From NCBI GenBank assembly GCA_947597925.1, contig CANQFA010000001.1, positions 186,001-250,000 on the forward strand: DNA of 64,000 bases, read 5' to 3'. Source of the DNA: an uncultured Clostridia bacterium (lineage in GTDB: Bacteria > Bacillota > Clostridia > Christensenellales > Borkfalkiaceae). Below are positions 20,492-23,338 of this stretch, one piece after another. Under the pieces are notes generated by a model. It searched no databases. It was not told where the DNA came from and was given only the letters and a program-made list of their open reading frames with translations. Every line of letters begins with the position of its first letter. Position 1 is the first letter of the stretch. Both the position numbers and the translations under genes were made by a program.

Positions 20492-20782
20492 TTACAGGCT
20501 CTTCAGGAACTCATTGAGGAGGCGGCGCTGGTCGGGTGTGAGCGAGGCGAGCTTGTCGTCCTCGGCGGGCTTTTTGGTGGAGAAAAACTCCTCGATGGTG
20601 ATCCCCAGCCCCCAGCAGATATTGTCGATATATTCGATCGTGGGATTTTTCTCGCCGCGCTCGAGTTGGTAGATGTAGGTGGGCGAAACGCCTGCCAGAT
20701 TGGCAAGTGCGTTCTGTTTCAGGTGTCTTGCTTCTCTCAGTTCCCGAATGCGCTTTGCGACATCGTGCCGATCCATCCTCAT
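20492..20782 (-). CDS. XRE-family regulator, possible controller (C) protein of the adjacent restriction-type island
   Basis: A 96-residue Cro/C1-type HTH protein: RIRELREARHLKQNALANLAGVSPTYIYQLERGEKNPTIEYIDNICWGLGITIEEFF. A short tail with KLASLTPDQRRLLNEFLKSL follows. The start is ambiguous between TTG 20791, ATG 20782 and ATG 20776; I use 20782. Size, single HTH and divergent position next to a methyltransferase match controller proteins of restriction-modification systems, but generic XRE regulators look the same. The intergenic region has symmetrical repeats around the methyltransferase -10 box, which supports a local regulatory role. Confidence 0.85.
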   Translation of the reverse strand: MRMDRHDVAKRIRELREARHLKQNALANLAGVSPTYIYQLERGEKNPTIEYIDNICWGLGITIEEFFSTKKPAEDDKLASLTPDQRRLLNEFLKSL

Positions 20783-20795
20783 TACCCCCAAAATT

Positions 20796-20900
20796 AAAAC
20801 TTTAGTTACAGTTTAAGCACATTTTTTGCCAAATATTAAAACTGTAGCGTTGACAAATTGAAACTATCGTGTTATAATTTTAACACTAAAATTCTAACAC
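20796..20900. promoter_or_regulatory. Operator-rich divergent region of the methyltransferase island
   Basis: Seen directly: GTGTTA-N6-TAACAC (20869-20886) overlaps the -10 box of the methyltransferase promoter, with a third TAACAC at 20895-20900. Toward the XRE gene, AAACT-N8-AGTTT (20797-20814) and three related units AAAACTTTAG, AAAACTGTAG and GAAACTATCG recur. The region is AT-rich compared with its surroundings. These are plausible binding sites for the XRE protein. Confidence 0.55.
20850..20878 (+). promoter_or_regulatory. Consensus promoter of methyltransferase-DUF262 operon
   Basis: TTGACA, 17-bp spacer, TATAAT: a perfect sigma-A consensus promoter, which would need repression to avoid constant expression. 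Confidence 0.85.
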
Positions 20901-20909
20901 GAGGGAATC

Positions 20910-21914
20910 ATGCCTGCCGACAGTTTGAGAAACGCGCGAAAAAACAAAGCGGACGAGTTTTACACCCAACTTTCGGATATCGAAGCCGAGCTCAAACACT
21001 ATAGGGAGCAGCTCCGCGGAAGGGTCATCTTCTGCAACTGCGACGACCCCTACGAGAGCAACTTTTTCCGCTACTTCGCCATGAATTTTAACTACCTGGG
21101 GCTCAAAAAGCTCATAGCGACCTGCTACGACCCCTCGCCGATCGCCCATACGCAGCTCTCCTTTTTCGACGAAGAAAAGGCCGTTCCGAACAGGAACCGC
21201 CGCGCCTATAAGATAGAGATCACCGAGGTGGGGGACTATAACGGCGACGGCGCGATAGACCTCGTCGATATCGAATGGCTCCTCAGGAATAAGAAAAATT
21301 CGCTGTCCCTCCTGAAGGGAAACGGCGACTTCCGCTCCGAGGAGTGCATCGCGCTGCTGAAAGAGGCGGATATCGTGGTGACCAACCCGCCCTTTTCGCT
21401 ATTCCGCGAGTATGTCGCGCAGCTCATGGAGCACAAGAAGAGGTTTTTGATCATCGGAAACAAAAACGCCATAACCTACAAAGAAATTTTTACCTTGATA
21501 CAGGCACAAAGACTTTGGATCGGCTATCGCAATATCAATGCGGATATGTGGTTTATTGTCCCCGAAAACTATAGCTACGAAAGGATCGTCGACGGAAAGA
21601 GGATCAAACACATCATGGGCTGTTGGTTTACAAATCTGGATACGTCCAAGCGCCACGAGGTCTTGCCTCTATATAAACGCTATACGCCCGAAGAATATCC
21701 CAAGTATGACAATTACGATGCCATTGAAGTGGGAAAAGTTTCGGACATCCCTTATGACTATGACGGCGTGATGGGCGTTCCTATCACCTTTCTTGATAAA
21801 TACAATCCCGAGCAATTTGAACTTGTTCGTTTTCGAAAGGGGAACGACGACAGAGATTTGTCGATCAATGGGAAATATCCGTATTTTAGAATTCTTATAA
21901 GGAGGAAATCATGA
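20910..21914 (+). CDS. Adenine-specific DNA methyltransferase, EcoRI methylase family
   Basis: A 334-residue protein of the EcoRI-methylase-like N6-adenine methyltransferase family. The catalytic motif IV is ADIVVTNPPFSLFREYVAQLM (NPPF 159-162). The N-terminus (KADEFYTQLSDIEAEL...RVIFCNCDDPYESNFFRYFAMNF) and RFLIIGNKNAITYKEIF also fit. Residues 109-120 (DYNGDGAIDLVD) form a textbook EF-hand/dockerin-type calcium loop just before the catalytic region. It is transcribed from a consensus promoter and its stop overlaps the DUF262 gene start (ATGA). The 3' third is AT-richer than neighbouring core genes, suggesting acquisition by transfer. I infer that it modifies DNA to protect it from, or to mark it for, the partner protein. 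Confidence 0.88.
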   Translation: MPADSLRNARKNKADEFYTQLSDIEAELKHYREQLRGRVIFCNCDDPYESNFFRYFAMNFNYLGLKKLIATCYDPSPIAHTQLSFFDEEKAVPNRNRRAYKIEITEVGDYNGDGAIDLVDIEWLLRNKKNSLSLLKGNGDFRSEECIALLKEADIVVTNPPFSLFREYVAQLMEHKKRFLIIGNKNAITYKEIFTLIQAQRLWIGYRNINADMWFIVPENYSYERIVDGKRIKHIMGCWFTNLDTSKRHEVLPLYKRYTPEEYPKYDNYDAIEVGKVSDIPYDYDGVMGVPITFLDKYNPEQFELVRFRKGNDDRDLSINGKYPYFRILIRRKS

Positions 21915-23011
21915 AAATCGAACTGCACGAGATCACGGTCGGCGAGATCGCCGAAAACTACATCGACAACGCCGAGGAGGGCGTGGTCGGCTACGGCGGC
22001 AAGCTCAACATCCGCCCCAAATATCAGCGCGAATTCGTCTATGACGAGAAGAAGCGCAATGCCGTCATCGACACCATCATGAAGGGCTTTCCGCTCAACG
22101 TCATGTATTGGGTCCGGAATGAAGACGGCACCTACGAAGTTCTGGACGGACAGCAGCGCACGGTGAGCTTTTTCCAATACGTAGAGGGGGACTTCTCTGT
22201 GGGCGAACGCTATTTTCATAGCCTCACGGAGTATGAGCGGCAGAAGATCCTCGACTATAAGGTCCTCGTCTATTTCTGCGAGGGGAATGACCGCGAGAAA
22301 CTCGATTGGTTCCGCATCATCAATATCGCGGGCGAAAAACTCACCGAACAGGAGCTCCGCAACGCGACCTACACGGGGCCGTGGCTCACACACGCGAAGT
22401 CCATTTTCAGCAAATCAAACTGCGCCGCATATCTCCTCGCGAAGGACTATGTAAGCGGTTCGCCCATCCGGCAGGAGATCCTGGAGACGGCGCTCGACTG
22501 GATGAGCAAGGGGGCAATCGAGGAGTATATGTCGGCCCATCAGCACGACCCCAATGCAAACGAGCTGTGGACCTATTTCCGAAACGTCATCGAGTGGGTG
22601 CAGCTGACCTTCCCGCGATACCGCTGGGAGATGAAGGGGATCGCTTGGGGCGGCCTGTATGACGAATTTCATGGGAAGACCTACGATACCGCGGCATTGG
22701 AACAAAAAATCGCCGTCCTCATGGCGGACGACGATGTGACGAGCAAGAAGGGGATATACCCCTATCTGCTGACGGGGAAGGAGAAGCTCCTGAATATCCG
22801 TGCCTTCACCGAGAGCCAGAAGCGACAGGTCTATGAACGGCAGGGCGGGGTCTGCCCCCATTGTGTGCGGGAGCACCGCGAGAAGACGCGCTATGCCTTT
22901 GACGAGATGGAGGGGGACCATATCACGCCGTGGTGCGAGGGCGGCAAGACCGTCCTCGAGAACCTGCAAATGCTCTGCAAGGAACACAACCGCCTGAAGA
23001 GCAGCCGCTGA
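21911..23011 (+). CDS. DUF262 (GmrS-like/ParB-like) protein with C-terminal HNH nuclease domain
   Basis: A 366-residue protein. The N-terminal DUF262 domain has RPKYQREFVYDEKKRNAVIDTIMKGFPLN and the nucleotide-handling YEVLDGQQRTVSFFQY motif seen in GmrS and related restriction proteins. The C-terminus is an HNH nuclease: CPHC, then the GDHI core histidine, then NLQMLCKEHNRLK; all expected residues are present. DUF262 domains hydrolyse NTPs in characterised type IV enzymes, and the HNH domain would cut DNA. Overlap with the methyltransferase gene implies coupled translation and a joint function, probably a compact defence or restriction system. Confidence 0.88.
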   Translation: MKIELHEITVGEIAENYIDNAEEGVVGYGGKLNIRPKYQREFVYDEKKRNAVIDTIMKGFPLNVMYWVRNEDGTYEVLDGQQRTVSFFQYVEGDFSVGERYFHSLTEYERQKILDYKVLVYFCEGNDREKLDWFRIINIAGEKLTEQELRNATYTGPWLTHAKSIFSKSNCAAYLLAKDYVSGSPIRQEILETALDWMSKGAIEEYMSAHQHDPNANELWTYFRNVIEWVQLTFPRYRWEMKGIAWGGLYDEFHGKTYDTAALEQKIAVLMADDDVTSKKGIYPYLLTGKEKLLNIRAFTESQKRQVYERQGGVCPHCVREHREKTRYAFDEMEGDHITPWCEGGKTVLENLQMLCKEHNRLKSSR

Positions 23012-23338
23012 GTCCTTTGGGAACGATCAAACCCAACACGCCGAACAGCCGCAAAAGCCCTTTCCTCAACGGGACACCGTTTTTGCGGTCCTCGACTCCG
23101 TTGCGCGGGAGATCGATATAAATAGGGAAAAAATTCGCGTTTGCGTATCAAAACGAGTTGCTTTTTTCGGGCGGGCATGGTATACTTGAAAAGTCTGCAG
23201 GGCCGCCGTGCATCATTTTGGCCGTCGTGCGGGCAAATCCACATTCCGCGCCGTGCCGCACTCCGTGCTCCGTAAATCCTTTTCATGCGGGGCTCAGGCG
23301 GGATCTCATGCGGTGGGAAGAGGGAAAACGGAGGAATT
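23012..23338 (+). other. 327-bp gene-free region: structured element, rpsB promoter and leader
   Basis: The first part holds nested inverted repeats: CCGCAAAA (23049-23056) with TTTTGCGG (23081-23088), and CAACGG (23067-23072) with CCGTTG (23098-23103), perhaps a terminator or an intergenic repeat. The rpsB promoter follows at 23158-23186. The remaining 150 or so bases are an untranslated leader with several GC-rich short repeats, where S2 autoregulation could act. I see no coding gene here. Confidence 0.5.
23158..23186 (+). promoter_or_regulatory. Predicted promoter of rpsB-tsf
   Basis: TTGCTT, 17-bp spacer, TATACT. The pyrH promoter has the identical -35 and -10 hexamers and spacing. Confidence 0.7.

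Follow-up and report, generated by a model that had tools for sequence, protein, structure and literature searches.

The window (the whole stretch of 64,000 nucleotides analysed) carries a small XRE-family regulator gene divergent from the genes of an EcoRI-family adenine methyltransferase (M) and a DUF262-HNH protein (R), as described in an earlier note on this DNA. The M and R reading frames overlap by ATGA and follow a perfect consensus promoter. The features of the locus are listed below, with the strand given where one is assigned.

20492..20776, minus strand: XRE-family regulator, 94 aa (PF01381, 6.7e-14)
20793..20815: candidate XRE operator, a AAACTTTAGTTACAGTTT repeat/dyad adjoining the XRE start (the intergenic alignment shows a conserved AAACTWTAGTTWTAGTTTA block)
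20836..20870: further candidate XRE boxes, AAAACTGTAGCG and GAAACTATCGTG (repeats, kept in relatives)
20850..20878, plus strand: promoter of the M-R operon, TTGACA-17-TATAAT (12/12 match to consensus, kept in relatives)
20867..20902: 16-nt imperfect inverted repeat over the -10/start region (94% complementary, 4-nt loop)
20910..21914, plus strand: M, EcoRI-family adenine methyltransferase, 334 aa (PF13651 EcoRI_methylase, 2e-138)
21384..21395, plus strand: NPPF catalytic motif of M, residues 159-162 (invariant in 56 aligned M)
21519..21620, plus strand: VR1 of M, residues 204-237, class YRNINADMWF...IMG, putative first target recognition segment (hypervariable, reassorting)
21825..21884, plus strand: VR2 of M, residues 306-325, class FRKGNDDRDLSINGKYPY, putative second target recognition segment (class common to genuine M.EcoRI)
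21911..23011, plus strand: R, DUF262(ParB-like)-HNH nuclease, 366 aa (PF03235 GmrSD_N, 6.5e-21; PF01844, 2e-8)
22145..22159, plus strand: DGQQR NTP-binding motif of R, residues 79-83 (kept in all 59 R aligned)
22853..23005, plus strand: HNH domain of R, with D336, H337, N351, N360 and C315/C318/C356 (PF01844)

M of the window is 53% identical to M.EcoRI from a plasmid of E. coli. The PADLOC profiles PDLC03297 (MTase_II) and PDLC03418 (REase_II) match M and R, respectively, over approximately their full length (6.5e-137 for R), so both proteins are already catalogued. In the HNH domain of the 59 aligned R, D336, N351, N360, C315 and C356 are invariant, and H337 and C318 are kept in at least 90%. 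A profile search of R found GmrSD_N and HNH as the only domains, with no match to DUF1524. Foldseek searches with an AlphaFold model for R, of mean pLDDT 87.6, gave weak matches, none with E <= 0.001; the best was to BrxU (E=2.6e-3), and others were to ParB/Noc clamps and an HNH nickase. For M, no solved relative was found in the PDB by sequence, and by fold there was no match with E <= 0.001.

The unit is flanked by degV and rpsB. The placement is not, however, a clean insertion between ancestral neighbours. In 19 congeners compared, homology to the window upstream of rpsB does not start before about 23230-23330, and the 1.5 kb preceding rpsB yielded no degV. A clean empty site between degV and rpsB was sought in relatives and not found, the region before rpsB being variable; positions 23011-23330 of the window are unconserved within the genus. 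The genome of the window encodes two further DUF262 proteins. One, of 598 aa (L001, G000:C8), is GmrSD-like with a VHHIFP nuclease-type motif and adjoins an integrase-like gene; the other, of 401 aa (L002, G000:C27), has DGKQR and no obvious nuclease domain and lies at a contig end.

The pairing of M with R is close to universal. Loci were collected by searching with R alone, plasmid, phage and genome loci being pooled and duplicates removed; the relatives compared are mostly metagenome-assembled. M lies near R, usually directly upstream, in 186 of 193 distinct R loci spread over many phyla, plasmids and phages. Four of the other seven are cut by a contig end, and in two, L022 and L254, R is broken. 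The last, L084, has an intact R (L084:3037-5089) that immediately follows a RhuM-like gene and lacks an M within roughly 4 kb. The search with R alone found M at 78/80 loci in GTDB genomes and at 76/80 on viral contigs, where the remaining four are cut at contig ends. One scan of GTDB genomes yielded at least 531 stretches encoding an R relative, with hosts ranging from Clostridia and Bacteroidota to Patescibacteria. R is carried by 21 of 101 genomes in the genus of the window versus 8 of 399 sampled across the phylum, and the pair also occurs on plasmids, some with resistance genes. Thus, a nuclease and a linked cognate methyltransferase, as in restriction-modification (R-M) systems generally, are found together far above chance beyond the window locus, and the lack of co-occurrence that had been named as refuting the defence reading was not observed. 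Two variant architectures were seen. In L066 the order is reversed, with M downstream of R, and an EEKRR-coding repeat lies within the C-terminal part of M; one annotated CDS of a Lactiplantibacillus plantarum plasmid (L261:2180-4282) looks like a fusion of an EcoRI-family methyltransferase with a cytosine-5 methyltransferase.

The control region is conserved as well. The XRE-M intergenic regions of 13 relatives retain the TTGACA/TATAAT promoter and XRE-type repeats, those of the AAACTATAGTT type lying over and beside the promoter. In the window, the second candidate box of 20836..20870 occupies the spacer between the -35 and -10 elements of this promoter. In 16 relatives a divergent XRE can be detected upstream of M, with 57-84% identity in 13 and a more distant relationship in three, and XRE belongs to the unit in the genus of the window. 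An adjacent small HTH regulator and repeated putative operators at the R-M promoter, the features of C-protein-controlled R-M systems, are both present. This arrangement is consistent with autoregulation of the M-R promoter by XRE, in which the divergent regulator would repress or time the promoter via the repeated operators. The conserved promoter and repeat elements, together with the near-universal pairing, lend good support to the earlier description of a self-regulated two-gene restriction system. At another locus (L111:1865-1925), a (CGGCA)12 repeat lies about 60-130 bases upstream of M, and thus not within the M reading frame, as a possible expression switch.

Alignment of M reveals two hypervariable segments, VR1 and VR2, in the C-terminal half, which fall into discrete classes and look like target recognition domains. 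Among 158 M, 34 VR1 classes and 68 VR2 classes occur in 124 observed combinations, these counts depending on the chosen cut-off of 55% identity and on single linkage. The exchange is sharply bounded in L010 versus L011, where the XRE-M-R DNA is mostly 85-98% identical in 60-bp bins and VR1 and VR2 are at about 40%, the homology extending from near the 3' end of XRE to the stop codon of R. Residues 75-134 of M (VR0) were a candidate for a third recognition segment but were dropped, because EcoRI-paired M differ there too (0.05-0.49) yet must share GAATTC. L018, taken for a replacement of M owing to its low M-core identity to L015, proved to be a frameshift at a G12 tract combined with swapped VRs.

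R does not follow these segments. R identity correlates with that of the M core (r=0.72), which may reflect linkage alone, and hardly with VR1 (r=0.17) or VR2 (r=0.08). Given the M core, the partial correlations are -0.015 for VR1 and 0.019 for VR2; they were reached in 208/300 and 60/300 permutations, respectively, and do not stand out. In 121 pairs with R 80-90% identical, neither segment is common in 64% and both are common in 6.6%. R can be 94-97% identical although both M recognition segments have been exchanged, and the R cluster of the window, with 14 members, includes five VR1 and six VR2 classes in 10 combinations. Differences in R are spread equally along the protein in pairs with different VRs (86 pairs) and in those with matching VRs (only nine pairs). 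The change of R with M specificity that is expected of an orthodox Type II system is, on this indirect evidence from sequences, absent from the covariation.

Genuine EcoRI pairs provide a natural control. Six were found with an M of the same family beside an EcoRI-type R, from E. coli, two Klebsiella, Leuconostoc, Staphylococcus rostri and Rhodococcus, one of the Klebsiella R being annotated only as restriction endonuclease. In these, VR1 is 0.62-0.95 and VR2 0.75-1.0 identical even with R.EcoRI just 60% identical, while residues 75-134 of M diverge freely. VR1 and VR2 are frozen where the nuclease fixes the site and free beside the DUF262-HNH protein. By this control and by analogy, different VR1/VR2 classes would correspond to different sites. 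The site of the window M may share part of GAATTC, because this M has the EcoRI VR2 class and a different VR1 class. On the Rhodococcus plasmid (L265:1623-5918), the EcoRI-type pair is followed by another DUF262 protein.

Five relatives have switchable-looking VR2 cassettes, three with a choice of frame at a repeat tract and two with inversion between perfect repeats. In G359, from the genus of the window, M enters a CAGA repeat at a contig end and a second contig begins in the same repeat. The contigs overlap exactly by 57 nt, and three open frames follow, encoding an EcoRI-class VR2 (...TPYFRILIRRK), a GATESEG cassette and a GLDDHR cassette that ends at the R start. The design recurs in G797 (Saccharibacteria), where the repeat is AAGC, the cassettes are different and the exact contig overlap is only 9 nt. 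In both genomes the joining across the repeats is inferred, because the assemblies break there. L173 lies on a single contig and has a GA repeat, with two of the frames productive and one meeting an early stop. In L105 and L136, a second VR2 cassette lies in inverted orientation, bounded by perfect repeats of 18 nt and 15 nt, respectively. These architectures suggest that the cassettes switch, and R is full-length at the switchable loci. The EcoRI-class VR2 (FRKG/FRHG...KDL) is among the alternatives in 5/5 switchable loci (L266-L276 for G359 and G797, L173, L105, L136). M is out of frame at a G12 tract in L018 and at a G11 tract in L136. Two M genes with differing VRs accompany one R in L112, L156, L170, L174 and L249, the second M of L156 being diverged. 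The window copy has neither a repeat tract nor a second cassette, and a search of its genome for further M fragments or VR cassettes gave just one weak 60-residue match; it is judged to be a fixed member of the family.

The reading best suited to these data, with a probability of roughly 0.7, is a mobile R-M system in which M sets the specificity of both marking and cutting. If the nuclease read a site by itself, each change of M specificity would expose the host to cutting; therefore R would take its target from M, as near-identical R with exchanged segments, tandem M genes and cassettes beside a full-length R all indicate. Cassette switching would be tolerable only if R follows M, a logic earlier applied to the EcoP1/EcoP15 mod genes (PMC3874151). 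M thus probably aims R, unlike in ordinary two-gene restriction systems. The sequences themselves show the pairing, the R-independent VR reassortment, the EcoRI control, the cassette architectures, the conserved promoter and repeats, and the intact motifs; methylation, an M-R complex, NTP use, cleavage, repression and actual switching of the cassettes are putative steps of the mechanism. M, with its two exchangeable segments, would methylate adenine in the resulting site. R, without a recognition segment of its own, would be guided by an M sitting on an unmethylated site, where M would load or activate it. NTP binding or hydrolysis by the ParB-like DUF262 domain would serve as the switch, and the C-terminal HNH domain would do the cutting. 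Against the aiming of R by M, there is no motor domain to explain the comparison of distant or multiple sites, and at L084 an intact R has no M in the nearest 4 kb or so.

The main rival, regarded as unlikely, is that R senses the presence or absence of N6-methyladenine independently of sequence and without binding M, in an SspE-like manner; host methylation would, for example, regulate its NTPase and nuclease. SspE and BrxU are indeed DUF262 enzymes under DNA modification control, and such sensing would also account for an R insensitive to M specificity and agree with the rarity of R without M. Both enzymes have the DUF1524 that R lacks, however, and since sparse host marks leave most DNA unmarked, a sequence-blind sensor would need an extra cue to tell self from non-self. 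The orthodox Type II reading, in which R by itself reads the site of M, is strongly disfavoured. Although gene layout and the PADLOC models speak for it, both M segments can be replaced beside R up to 97% identical, no region of R tracks the VR classes, switchable cassettes and tandem M stand beside one intact R, and genuine EcoRI pairs behave in the opposite way. Orthodox Type II systems also have no NTP requirement; R carries a DUF262 domain of the NTPase type, which may be active. The statement in the earlier note that the system matches no classical layout therefore needs dividing. The gene order is an ordinary M-then-R and counts as Type II in PADLOC; the covariation argues against orthodox Type II working, because the M recognition segments vary independently of the nuclease.

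Marginally less credible still is an R inactive in many copies, with the locus serving mainly as an epigenetic switch (phasevarion) or addiction module. Repeat-tract and inversion architectures would suit such a role, and res is sometimes non-functional in repeat-bearing Type III mod systems (PMC3874151), but the DGQQR and HNH residues are kept in 59 aligned loci and R is not truncated where M is switchable. The lowest probability falls to a Type IV-like restriction of foreign modified DNA with M as a bystander. Its basis is the DUF262 kinship with GmrSD/BrxU, whereas M nearly always accompanies R, overlaps it in the window, and would mark host DNA that an R dependent on adenine marks is expected to attack. 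With a cognate M present, a Type IV assignment of the locus was rejected, and the term modification-dependent, offered previously, finds no support, a cognate methyltransferase being present in 186/189 testable loci.

Compared with known systems, the reading in which M aims R has partial parallels. The window VR2 class is shared with EcoRI; here a DUF262-HNH protein replaces R.EcoRI, the window VR1 is of another class, and the VRs of EcoRI pairs are frozen. Type III systems (EcoP1/EcoP15, phase-variable mod) likewise have two genes, an M that apparently gives specificity, a recognition region of M that swaps beside a constant R, and repeat-mediated phase variation. They differ in that their Res has an SF2 helicase/translocase absent from the M-R family, where M is a two-segment EcoRI-type enzyme, R combines ParB-like and HNH domains, and two loci have a three-frame choice among complete C-termini. 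BREX is similar if M aims and R cuts, and differs by the ParB-like NTPase-HNH nuclease without helicase. GmrSD, BrxU and SspE (DUF262 + DUF1524) resemble R in combining DUF262, including DGQQR, with an HNH-type nuclease at the C-terminus, whereas R, of 366 aa, has a PF01844 HNH and almost always an adenine methyltransferase as partner. Neither the Type IV GmrSD composition, without a cognate methyltransferase, nor the phosphorothioation genes that accompany SspE in Ssp systems apply here. In Type I hsdS shuffling and in NgoAV (full-length/truncated HsdS), inverted repeats or repeat tracts control specificity (PMC7394358). Two exchangeable target recognition domains are common to those systems and the M-R family, which has no S subunit or HsdR motor and carries the recognition segments inside the methyltransferase. 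The Type II label in PADLOC implies that R recognises a site independently, contrary to the covariation data.

A distinct R-M type may tentatively be proposed, in which an EcoRI-type M with two plug-in segments loads a sequence-blind, ParB-like, NTP-gated HNH nuclease and, in some members, a repeat tract chooses among three complete C-termini, which would make a three-state switch of specificity with no OFF state. Both families are catalogued. The literature searched, which leaves out most subscription papers and REBASE, gave no description of the M-R pair and nothing on the independence of the M segments from R, the contrast with EcoRI or the three-frame switch. The pair is widespread yet filed as plain Type II. 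The M-R family opens the recognition code of EcoRI-type methyltransferases to direct testing, would connect ParB-like NTP switches with restriction that involves a cognate methyltransferase, and would provide a further design of phase-variable specificity besides those of Types I and III. Should R indeed be aimed by M, the pair would offer a restriction platform both compact and naturally reprogrammable, in which exchange of two short segments would retarget both marking and cutting.
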